From Prevotella sp. (GTDB taxonomy: Bacteria > Bacteroidota > Bacteroidia > Bacteroidales > Bacteroidaceae): 33,993 nt of DNA. The notes below the pieces were generated by a model. It had not been told where the DNA came from, searched no databases, and saw nothing but the letters and a program-made list of their open reading frames with translations. The stretch covers positions 1 through 33,993 of the forward strand of contig JAGAYI010000029.1 of assembly GCA_017940545.1 (NCBI GenBank), read 5' to 3'. Position numbers and translations under genes: made by a program. The number at the start of each line of letters is the position of its first letter. Positions within the stretch are counted from its first letter, which is position 1. Below are positions 15,774-23,417 of the stretch, piece after piece.

Positions 15774-16274
15774 ATGAAAGTAAGATTCAATCGCTGGTAT
15801 AATGCTGTGTTGACAGCTCTGCTCAGCATGTTGGGCTACAGTTGTTCCTTGACTAACGATGAGCCAGATATGTATGGCCCTATTCTGATGTATGGTGTGG
15901 TGAATCCAGATGCTACTTATGAAGTAAAAGGAACCGTGACAGACGAGGGCGGCACTCCCGTCGAAGGCATCAAGACTGCCGTCAAGTTTGTCTCTCCGGT
16001 TGTTGACGGAGCCGACGGGAAACGTTATACAAGTGATATTAACGATTCGCAGTCCGATGCATCCGGTCACTACGAGTTGTTGTATTCTTCCGAAGTGGGA
16101 AACAGTCATATCAAGCTGATTGTTGAGGACATCGATGGTGAGGCCAATGGAGGAAAATTCCAGAACGATACCATCGACATAGACTATAGCAAGGCTGTTC
16201 AGATTAAGAAGGGTGATGAAAATTCCAAGGGTACTTTTGAAATCAGTCAGGACATAAAACTAAAGAAAGAATGA
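15774..16274 (+). CDS. Radical SAM-associated putative lipoprotein
   Basis: A 166-residue lipoprotein. The signal KVRFNRWYNAVLTALLSMLG ends at the lipid cysteine C24 (GYSC). A doubled MYG motif follows (33-35 and 39-41), then a beta-sandwich of the carboxypeptidase-regulatory/Ig-like kind (YEVKGTVTDEGGTPVEGI, later SGHYELLY). From memory this matches the lipoprotein partner of the rSAM/lipoprotein system (TIGR04134 type): RWYN near the start, an LLxxLGxSC signal, a YG motif and a KGTVTD strand. It overlaps the rSAM gene by 4 nt (ATGA), so the two are co-translated and it is the likely substrate or partner. The modification is unknown; no obvious C-terminal core peptide is seen. Confidence 0.82.
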   Translation: MKVRFNRWYNAVLTALLSMLGYSCSLTNDEPDMYGPILMYGVVNPDATYEVKGTVTDEGGTPVEGIKTAVKFVSPVVDGADGKRYTSDINDSQSDASGHYELLYSSEVGNSHIKLIVEDIDGEANGGKFQNDTIDIDYSKAVQIKKGDENSKGTFEISQDIKLKKE

Positions 16275-17347
16275 AGGCCACACCGCTGACATTACGTAAG
16301 AAACTCGTCCTTGAACTTTGGCGGCAGAAAGAGGAAATGGTGCGCGAGGAGCACCCGCTGAGACAACTCTTTTGGGAGTGTACCTTGCGCTGTGACCTCA
16401 AGTGTCGCCACTGCGGCAGCGACTGCAAGATGCAGGATGCTTCTAAGGATATGCCCCGTGAGGATTTTCTACGGGTGCTCGATTCCATTGCCCGGAAGCT
16501 TGACCCACATGGGGTCTTCGTGATTATTTCGGGTGGTGAACCGCTCATGCGGAAAGACATTGAGGAGTGTGGACGTGCTATCAGCGAGAAAGGCTTTCCC
16601 TGGGGCATGGTGACCAACGCCCTCCACCTGACGCCCCAGCGCTGGCAGGGCCTGCTTCATGCCGGCATCCGTTCTATGGCAATCAGTTTAGACGGACTGG
16701 AAACTGACCATAACTGGATGCGTGGTAACGACCGCAGCTTCCAGATGGTGAGTCAGGCCATTGACATGCTGGTGGCGCAAGACGGTTTTGTCTTCGACAT
16801 CGTTACCTGTGTTAACCGTCGTAACTATTCACATTTGGATGATATCAAGGAGTTCCTGATTTCAAAAGGTGTCAAGCGATGGCGACTTTTTACTGTGTTC
16901 CCCGTTGGGCGGGCCGCCCTCGACCCCGATATGCGATTGACCAATGAAGAGTTTCGGGGAGTGTTCGACTACCTTAGACGAACCCGGGCAGAGGGGCGTA
17001 TCAGGGCCGACTATGGTTGTGAGGGCTTCTTGGGTAATTATGAGGGTGAGGTGCGCAACCGTCTGTTCTCCTGTCAGGCAGGCGTGACCGTCGGCTCTGT
17101 GATGGCCGATGGCTCCATAGCCGCTTGTGCCAGCATTCGTGCCGACTTTAACCAAGGCAACATCTACCAAGATGACTTTCTGGATGTATGGGAGAATCGC
17201 TACACAGCCTACCGTCACCACGAATGGATGCGGACGGACGACTGTTCTGACTGTAAGTACTTTCGCTACTGTCAGGGCAATGGCATGCATCTGCGTGACG
17301 GTAACGGCAAACTGCTACTTTGTCACCTGAAGCGTATCGCTGATTAA
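16271..17347 (+). CDS. Radical SAM/SPASM protein of the rSAM/lipoprotein system
   Basis: A 358-residue cytoplasmic radical SAM enzyme. The [4Fe-4S]/SAM motif is C41xxxC45xxC48, flanked by further cysteines C37 and C52. The SAM-binding GGEP is at 88-91. The C-terminal SPASM-like region has C250, C268, C286, C325, C328, C334 and C351, enough for one or two auxiliary clusters; the usual CxxxC after C334 is replaced by CQGNGMH. SPASM enzymes commonly modify peptides or proteins (thioether, C-C or cyclophane links). Together with the upstream lipoprotein this fits the TIGR04133/TIGR04134 pair, from memory. The 3' end overlaps a converging small lipoprotein ORF by 33 bp. The reaction is not known. 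Confidence 0.88.
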   Translation: MKATPLTLRKKLVLELWRQKEEMVREEHPLRQLFWECTLRCDLKCRHCGSDCKMQDASKDMPREDFLRVLDSIARKLDPHGVFVIISGGEPLMRKDIEECGRAISEKGFPWGMVTNALHLTPQRWQGLLHAGIRSMAISLDGLETDHNWMRGNDRSFQMVSQAIDMLVAQDGFVFDIVTCVNRRNYSHLDDIKEFLISKGVKRWRLFTVFPVGRAALDPDMRLTNEEFRGVFDYLRRTRAEGRIRADYGCEGFLGNYEGEVRNRLFSCQAGVTVGSVMADGSIAACASIRADFNQGNIYQDDFLDVWENRYTAYRHHEWMRTDDCSDCKYFRYCQGNGMHLRDGNGKLLLCHLKRIAD

Positions 17348-17509
17348 TGCGCTGCCTTCTTCTAATACGCTGCTGACGCTGTCGGTATATTCCTTCGACT
17401 GGTATTTCTGAGGAATGGCACCGTAGCAGGCAGTAAATACGATTGCCGCCGAACTGAACCCCAGCATAGACAGCAATTTTGTAATGGTCTGTTTCTTTAA
17501 ATGTTTCAT
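17315..17509 (-). CDS. 64-residue small lipoprotein facing the rSAM gene
   Basis: Start taken at ATG 17509 (MKHLKKQ); ATG 17515 would add two residues. A -7 element TATCTTTG (17542-17535) lies 25 nt upstream. The longer frame back to 17635 crosses this promoter and is rejected. The product has a basic N-terminus, the hydrophobic stretch LLSMLGFSSAAIVFTAC with lipid cysteine C28, directly followed by YG, and a 34-residue polar tail rich in Ser/Thr/Glu. LLSMLGFS nearly repeats LLSMLGYS of the radical SAM-associated lipoprotein, and a YG follows the cysteine in both. It may be a second partner or substrate of the rSAM enzyme. The coding region overlaps the rSAM 3' end by 33 bp. Confidence 0.6.
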   Translation of the reverse strand: MKHLKKQTITKLLSMLGFSSAAIVFTACYGAIPQKYQSKEYTDSVSSVLEEGSALISDTLQVTK

Positions 17510-17534
17510 CCTCATATCTTTAAATAGCTTGCCG

Positions 17535-17542
17535 CAAAGATA
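17535..17542 (-). promoter_or_regulatory. -7 element of the small lipoprotein gene
   Basis: TATCTTTG on the minus strand, 25 nt before the ATG. A -33 TTTG at the right distance is not seen. Confidence 0.5.
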
Positions 17543-17659
17543 GGCATATTTTTTCATTTCACCAAGAATAACAGGCTTAACTTTACTTAAAACCGTTAAA
17601 TAATCATAATTTGATGGTCTTTTCTCCTTTCTCATTACTTCTTTCTCATATTATCTCAC

Positions 17660-17667: not shown

Positions 17668-17894
17668 CAGTCCGATTTTTAGGGGAGAGTCTTAGAATCC
17701 CCACAGAGCGAGTGTGTAAATAGTGGTGTCTTTGGCCGGGCACAACGGTTTGTGAATCACTGGTTCCAGGGCGGTGAAAGTCCGCCGTAGCGTATCGTTA
17801 GACTACCGTGCAGGGAGTTAGACCTCTGCGGGTGGTTCTTGTGTGCGTAGTAAATATAATAATGTTTTTTAGTAGTAAAATTAATTAAGTAAAA
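17668..17894 (+). promoter_or_regulatory. Structured 5' leader of rplM-rpsI (candidate L13 autoregulatory leader)
   Basis: Between the -7 element and the rplM ATG lie about 220 nt with no ORF of note and at least four possible hairpins: GGGGA/TCCCC (17682-17702), CACAA/TTGTG with a 4-nt loop (17741-17754), GGCGG/CCGCC with a 7-nt loop (17770-17786), and GCAGGG/CC-CTGC (17810-17829). An AT-rich single-stranded stretch then runs to the start codon. Ribosomal protein operons are often controlled by such leaders that imitate the rRNA site of the encoded protein, and an L13 leader has, I believe, been proposed in Bacteroidia. The hairpins are seen in the sequence; the regulator is inferred. Confidence 0.55.
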
Positions 17895-23322: not shown

Positions 23323-23398
23323 TATCTTTGCATCGTGTTTTTCATAGTATTAGATTTAAGGTTAACAAAGGTTGGGACTTGGCGAAGTCCCTTTTTTT
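23323..23398 (+). ncRNA. Candidate small RNA of about 60 nt
   Basis: A -7 element TATCTTTG (23323-23330) is followed within about 45 nt by a textbook terminator: GGGACTT (23374-23380), loop GGCG, AAGTCCC (23385-23391) and seven T. The T-run is present only on the plus strand, so it does not serve the converging PAP2 gene. No ORF of note lies between, so a short non-coding RNA starting near 23337 is the simplest reading. The -33 element is weak: TTGT at 23297-23300 is about 22 nt away. Confidence 0.5.
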
Positions 23399-23417
23399 GT
23401 GCCTGTCAGTGTCGTGG

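Follow-up and report, generated by a model that had tools for sequence, protein, structure and literature searches.

A minimal lipoprotein as probable second substrate of a TIGR04133 radical SAM/SPASM enzyme in Prevotella

Spliceases cut an amino acid out of the protein backbone. Those of the PlpX type are described as acting at an XYG site, with MYG and LYG as natural sites (PMC10533398); the same paper cites a survey (Scott et al. 2022, Chem) in which 27 splicease systems are counted as characterised and 939 as predicted. It also reports that a ten-residue splicease tag can work without the leader, and that GYGLPI tags were effective in two FtsZ placements, whereas most of the others tried failed, LYGLPI among them. 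Since an LYG-type tag stayed unmodified at both FtsZ sites tried (PMC10533398), the short motif by itself does not always suffice, even for PlpX. A second paper places PlpX in IPR026482 and refers to protease inhibition as a use of the moiety that splicing produces (PMC11002830).

The window analysed here is a whole stretch of 33,993 nucleotides from Prevotella sp. (contig JAGAYI010000029.1), in which three genes lie between positions 15774 and 17509: a TIGR04134 lipoprotein gene and a TIGR04133 enzyme gene, both on the forward strand, and a convergent 64-codon ORF on the reverse strand. The enzyme (16271..17347, +), the proposed modifier, is a radical SAM (rSAM)/SPASM protein scoring 561.2 bits with TIGR04133, for which the cut-off is 425, and also matches the Pfam models Radical_SAM and SPASM. 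The lipoprotein preceding it (15774..16274, +), the proposed first substrate, reaches 90.6 bits with TIGR04134 (cut-off 39.8) and contains DMYGPILMYGVVNPDATY, that is, two XYG sites; it is the sole match over that cut-off in the window's genome, which is 71% complete. Both families stand in NCBIfam as hypothetical equivalogs, and the libraries searched name neither the target residue nor the reaction. Literature searches with TIGR04133, TIGR04134 and the family names found no paper in the collection searched, and an earlier splicease proposal or proof for TIGR04133 may exist. The 64-residue product of the convergent ORF, as the smallest member of the group, reveals the handful of residues common to the partners of an enzyme that is still uncharacterised.

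A short lipoprotein gene facing the radical SAM gene

An initial annotation, made from the letters alone, had described the 64-codon ORF (17315..17509, -) as a short lipoprotein gene on the strand opposite to the rSAM gene and overlapping its 3' end. The position was confirmed, since the rSAM stop lies at 17345-17347 and the ORF stop at 17315-17317, giving an overlap of 33 bp. Translation starts at the ATG at 17509, or at an alternative ATG at 17515, and the product reads MKHLKKQTITKLLSMLGFSSAAIVFTACYGAIPQKYQSKEYTDSVSSVLEEGSALISDTLQVTK. From this reading, together with an ORF filter, the hallmarks of a lipoprotein can be recognised, namely a positive start, a hydrophobic stretch and a lipobox ending in Cys, MKHLKKQTITKLLSMLGFSSAAIVFTAC; the protein is, as judged from its sequence, a predicted bacterial lipoprotein.

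No match to the ORF was found in NCBIfam and Pfam at E<=10, nor to its relatives L004 in Pfam and L010 in NCBIfam. Among the 200 genomes of the genus, relatives were found in six, with 46-57% identity over 45-58 residues and E-values from 9.5e-15 to 7.8e-11, the best of them, in other Prevotella-type genomes, being 51% identical (E 9.5e-15); further genomes of this set hold more distant relatives. A scan of genome contigs with the single sequence gave no match, and an alignment-based scan returned 11 loci, six of them on contigs already sampled; the 11 are labelled Prevotella (7), Prevotellaceae (3) or Bacteroidales (1), three with mention of yak or water-buffalo stomachs. One match in the window's own genome (at C36, 43%, E 0.02, within a 264-aa frame) was taken as chance. 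In five pairs of relatives dN/dS values of 0.10/0.54, 0.13/0.73, 0.06/0.46, 0.14/1.02 and 0.07/1.19 were obtained, three of these pairs coming from one trio and none containing the window ORF, which stands so far from its nearest relatives that synonymous sites are wholly or almost saturated and dS is not reliable. The 64-codon ORF is a genuine conserved gene, beyond chance.

The ORF had also been credited with its own -7 element, which was located as TATCTTTG at 17535-17542 (-), of the TAnnTTTG form that we take to be the -7 type of Bacteroidetes promoters. A TTGG at 17562-17565 (-), 19 bp from this element, was read from the sequence as a possible -33 element. TAnnTTTG is over-frequent in the window (33 occurrences, against a mean of 16.65 in shuffles), so that a lone -7 box says little and conservation is what counts: the element lies 25-33 bases ahead of the start in seven of 11 genes, the window included, the same comparison shows the -7 box of the L009 gene, and TTGG is visible in several of the compared rows. 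The next gene beyond the short ORF is rplM (Pfam Ribosomal_L13). Upstream of it, at 17682-17758 (+), there is an L13-Bacteroidia ribosomal protein leader (Rfam RF03127, 68.9 bits), from which the promoter of the short lipoprotein points away; elsewhere in the window, at 23335-23401 (+), a FopS family sRNA was found (RF04319, 76.9 bits).

Alignment of ten sequences, window included, showed M1, L13, L16, G17, F25, A27, C28, Y29, G30, P33 and Y36 to be invariant, with D43 and S44 at 90%; in these ten, conservation covers portions of the signal peptide together with C-Y-G-x-x-P-x-x-Y, and the tail mostly drifts. The stretch C-Y-G-A-I-P-Q-K-Y (17402..17428, -), in which the lipid Cys is followed by YG..P..Y, is the proposed modification site on account of its conservation and of the family motif. 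That YG directly follows the lipid cysteine, as initially noted, holds for the ORF itself, where Cys-Tyr-Gly is read, and for all ten sequences. The LLSMLGFS element of the signal peptide (17453..17476, -), which includes the invariant L13, L16 and G17, is a putative recognition element for the enzyme. It had been regarded as a near-repeat of the partner's signal, and the letters agree (KLLSMLGFS against ALLSMLGYS), but the distance to the lipid Cys differs: in the partner the Cys comes directly after LLSMLGYS, and in the ORF it comes eight residues later (LLSMLGFS-SAAIVFTA-C). This difference places LLSMLGF(Y)S in the hydrophobic part of the signal and sets it apart from the lipobox.

The Gly of the motif is replaced in the relatives L133, L135 and L137, which read CYA in place of CYG, and L135, adjoining an rSAM gene, counts against a strict XYG rule. 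The match in genome G173 reads CYA as well and shares its contig with the enzyme, at some 58 kb. Either the Gly is not essential or the reaction has been lost in those proteins; the three relatives offer a natural test of the Gly requirement.

XYG lipoproteins around TIGR04133 genes

In order to place the short gene among the partners of the enzyme family, 95 TIGR04133 loci were considered, drawn from 200 genomes of the genus, 295 of the order and plasmids of Phocaeicola, Parabacteroides and Treponema. They comprise the window, 52 of the 55 other genus matches (the three omitted do not reach the cut-off), 39 of the 77 further matches in the order (mostly the best-scoring) and three plasmid loci. 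A lipoprotein-like neighbour is present at 81 of the 95, and one with YG at 76, which is a low count because the lipoprotein filter misses real cases, such as the XYG lipoproteins of L068 and L072, seen in one filter and not in the other; at 19 loci the filter found no lipoprotein-like ORF with YG. Near these loci there are 165 lipoprotein-like ORFs, 105 with YG within 75 residues of the Cys, 99 with YG.{0,2}P and 108 with an LG-type signal. In a background of 316 kb from the genome to which the window belongs, with its flanks counted in, the corresponding figures are 3, 1 and 8 out of 60 lipoprotein-like ORFs. The motif counts are not to be read as independent trials, since the lipoproteins beside the rSAM genes are themselves mutually related. 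Moreover, clustering of the co-directional flanking ORFs gave one cluster present at 80 of the 95 loci, with YG in 105 of its 106 ORFs, the next partner cluster spanning seven loci. At two loci (L100 and L104) five XYG lipoproteins each surround a single TIGR04133 gene.

Across 143 YG sites, Pro occupies +2 in 99 and Tyr or Phe occupies +6 in 91, both conditions coinciding in 67. The X of XYG is E in 43, V in 28, M and L in 20 each and C in seven, with others making up the rest, and all seven C are C-Y-G at the lipid Cys. The 64-residue protein has both features of the group, an LLxxLGF-type signal and YG..P..[YF] after the Cys; its Pro stands at +3, against the commoner +2 of the XYG lipoproteins, and its C-Y-G..P..Y reads as an edge case of the motif XYGxP...[YF]. 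The C-Y-G class occurs with longer C-terminal parts too (L189, L271, L272 and L018): the Treponema protein of L189 passes the TIGR04134 cut-off with 43.7 bits, L271 and L272 give domain matches that stay under the cut-offs, and in L018 a BACON domain is recognised with 32.5 bits (cut-off 25). Therefore, the tail is exchangeable, the signal and XYG being the constant part. On plasmid pTS1 of Treponema saccharophilum (L189), the TIGR04133/TIGR04134 pair has the CYG arrangement and adjoins a DNA invertase gene, and this spirochaete plasmid pair is perhaps the result of lateral transfer.

The initial annotation had proposed looking for a converging short ORF at other rSAM loci. The gene is indeed conserved, but the converging copy is rare, being found at three of the 95 loci (window, L079 and L093), with other copies lying elsewhere; the arrangement of the window, in which short gene and rSAM gene face each other next to rplM, recurs in L004 and L005. 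Among 14 short CYG genes, five adjoin the enzyme gene (window, G013, G119, G037 and G162) and a sixth, in G031, lies 4.8 kb from it on the same contig, the enzyme gene being absent from the fetched stretch for the other eight (G018, G088, G090, G103, G157, L264, L268 and L269). In G037 and G162 the short lipoprotein gene lies directly upstream of the rSAM gene, 10-11 bp before its matched start, with no TIGR04134-type gene seen at that position; each of these genomes holds a second TIGR04133 locus. The C-Y-G class is directly upstream of the enzyme gene in L271 and L272 as well. In L264, L265, L267 and L268 the relative adjoins an rplM-like gene, and other genes come next in place of the enzyme.

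Counting as presence a match at E<=1e-100, TIGR04133 occurs in 50 of the 200 genus genomes and in 64 of the 295 order genomes. The 12 best genus matches to the short-lipoprotein profile, the CYA protein of G173 among them, belong to 12 genomes, 11 of which hold the enzyme by this measure; compared with its overall frequency of 50 in 200, this gives a Fisher p of 9e-7. Only G103, a genome 82% complete, has no TIGR04133 at 1e-100 among the 12; nor has G072 (93% complete), where the CYG form is fused to BACON. The longer-tailed CYG lipoproteins of L018 (from G072) and L020 have no enzyme gene in the fetched stretch, and G116, the source of L020, carries TIGR04133 on another contig. In the order, the profile matched 17 genomes besides that of the window at E<=0.001. 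Twelve of these matches, mostly longer lipoproteins, have a TIGR04133 match on their contig at no more than about 1.5 kb (below the cut-off in one case), and three (G478, G492 and G670) have the motif, with no TIGR04133 match on that contig. The remaining two (L291 and L292) are lipoproteins lacking the motif and were rejected as chance matches.

Relationship of the enzyme to spliceases

IPR026482, the family in which PlpX is placed, presumably corresponds to TIGR04103, and on a Nostoc plasmid a TIGR04103 enzyme (853 bits) adjoins a Nif11 precursor ending in LYGLPPELF. The window enzyme falls outside this family, with 113.3 bits against a cut-off of 725; its best other models are TIGR04053, NirJ2 and AhbD, all ahead of TIGR04103, and among the NCBIfam models TIGR04133 ranks third or fourth for four enzymes of the TIGR04103-related group. 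In addition, the fourth Cys of the SPASM pattern CX2CX5CX3C is missing in 20 of 20 TIGR04133 rows, the window enzyme included (Gly in 19, Ser in one), and is present in the TIGR04103 and related rows. A tblastn search of the 95 loci with one Nostoc PlpY-like query gave no match better than E 1.8. Among PDB sequences at E<=1e-10, the window enzyme matches PqqE and cytosylglucuronate decarboxylase and the Nostoc enzyme matches those plus SkfB, with no splicease by name among the matches of either.

TIGR04133 forms its own long branch in both trees built, and neither the 39-row tree nor the 35-row tree, from which the long-flagged rows own2_L034, L157, L241 and L239 were left out, set it firmly inside the PlpX group. 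In the 35-row tree it joins the Agathobacter/L156 pair with a support of 84/90, the rows of MftC, TIGR04053 and Halorussus, named as outgroup, are split off with 100/99, and a topology that keeps the ten remaining non-TIGR04133 rows together could not be rejected (p-AU 0.35). A feature of spliceases that the window enzyme does share is XYG in its presumed substrate, and small neighbours with XYG were found beside several related rSAM genes (L190, L230, L232 and L240). In L240, an Agathobacter rectalis plasmid locus, a 35-aa ORF with MYGTG (1309-1416) upstream of the rSAM gene is a candidate XYG peptide outside Bacteroidota; in the further plasmid TIGR04103-type loci looked at, no new XYG precursor was read. 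The window enzyme is accordingly not classed as a PlpX-type splicease.

Proposed role and comparison with known systems

The minimal lipoprotein, expressed from its own promoter, is probably a second substrate of the neighbouring TIGR04133 enzyme, and this is the most likely role for it although only five of the 14 short CYG genes adjoin the enzyme gene. Of the three options that the initial annotation had left side by side, a second substrate is the best supported: the gene is conserved, it carries the motif common to the enzyme's neighbouring lipoproteins and it co-occurs with the enzyme. From these observations we infer its substrate status, along with the role of the signal in recognition, the chemistry and the cell location outlined here. 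The enzyme would recognise the LLxxLGF element of the signal peptide in the cytoplasm, the lipoprotein signal peptide doubling as a RiPP leader, and would modify the XYG..P..Y site just past the signal element and adjoining the lipobox. After export of the modified protein, Cys28 would receive the lipid and signal peptidase II would cleave off the leader.

As regards the chemistry, TIGR04133 enzymes may act on lipoproteins in the way that spliceases do, with excision of tyramine, and in the CYG class the X of XYG would be the lipid-bearing cysteine itself. In our analysis, working like a splicease is the likeliest single chemistry for TIGR04133, at a probability below one half. The fuller proposal, that these enzymes are lipoprotein spliceases using the signal as RiPP leader, which would put electrophilic alpha-keto-beta-amino residues on membrane-anchored proteins of many Bacteroidales and a Treponema, the spliced residue in the CYG class being the lipidated cysteine, is tentative, and the chances are appreciably against it. 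No description of a lipoprotein N terminus with a spliced lipidated cysteine was met in the literature searched. As a speculation, one possible use would be that of a surface-tethered electrophile for protease inhibition.

The protein might also be a second substrate on which a different reaction takes place at the tyrosine or a nearby residue (cross-link, epimerisation or other), XYG being then a convergent or a docking motif, and this deserves serious consideration at somewhat short of an even chance. The absence from TIGR04133 of the SPASM cysteine kept in the TIGR04103 group, the failure to find PlpY, the separate clade of the enzyme, its 113 bits against the TIGR04103 cut-off and the existence of CYA variants all favour it, whereas the agreement of YG, Pro and the aromatic at +6 with the Nostoc precursor and the XYG-bearing small neighbours of related rSAM genes (L190, L230, L232 and L240) speak against it. 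We consider it unlikely that the protein is an ordinary, unmodified small lipoprotein merely lying beside rplM, with a signal styled like the partner's. Its own promoter, the eight of 14 short CYG genes with no enzyme nearby and the relatives that stay by an rplM-like gene with no enzyme adjoining (L264, L265, L267 and L268) would fit such a protein. Nevertheless, the residues invariant past the signal are those of the enzyme-partner motif, for which the own-genome background is one in 60; the enzyme is found in 11 of the 12 genomes with the best profile matches, its overall share being 50 of 200; and the C-Y-G class stands directly upstream of the enzyme gene in G037, G162, L271 and L272.

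Much less probable is an immunity-like or regulatory partner, itself unmodified, that binds the enzyme or the first lipoprotein. The opposite strand and separate promoter would permit its separate expression, but this suggestion of the initial annotation found no support, as the protein carries the motif of the other partners, the main substrate family included, and in G037 and G162 its copies occupy the usual place of the substrate gene, upstream of the rSAM gene. Finally, a spurious or decayed ORF is hardly conceivable. The shortness of the frame, its opposite strand and the lack of matches in the family libraries searched could suggest one, and a diverged remnant had been among the options offered; this reading is already contradicted by relatives at E 9.5e-15, by dN well below dS among them, by the conserved promoter and by a motif with invariant YG, P and Y.

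For the second-substrate reading, the value of the minimal protein lies in its comparison with the other partners, which isolates their shared part, an LLxxLGF signal plus XYGxP...[YF], and thereby allows the target site and the chemistry of the TIGR04133 system to be predicted in a testable way. If true, backbone-edited proteins would be displayed on the Bacteroidales envelope, and short lipoproteins would constitute an overlooked substrate class.

The closest system is the TIGR04133/TIGR04134 pair itself, with the same enzyme, the same style of signal peptide and XYG behind the lipid Cys. The 64-residue protein is without the C-terminal part that TIGR04134 lipoproteins have and, giving no match to the TIGR04134 model (cut-off 39.8 bits), falls outside that family; unlike the TIGR04134 partner, its gene converges on that of the enzyme and apparently has a promoter to itself. 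Mycofactocin MftC is likewise an rSAM/SPASM enzyme acting on tyrosine (PMC8326336), but its target is a Val-Tyr pair and its clade is separate from TIGR04133. The GDL-type enzymes of TIGR03913, associated with DUF1843 peptides, are related rSAM/SPASM proteins whose peptides are not lipoproteins: in the Bacteroidota loci of this type, L230 and L232, the small neighbours have PYG or LYG near the N terminus, and the Azospirillum DUF1843 peptide (L236, the sole complete one read) has MYM, not XYG. PlpX/PlpY shares with the present system an rSAM/SPASM enzyme and targets with X-Y-G; its targets have leaders of the Nif11 or nitrile-hydratase type, whereas those of TIGR04133 are lipoproteins with signal peptides. 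The likeness extends to the Nostoc precursor, whose LYGLPPELF combines YG, Pro at +2 and an aromatic residue at +6, as in the TIGR04133-linked lipoproteins.
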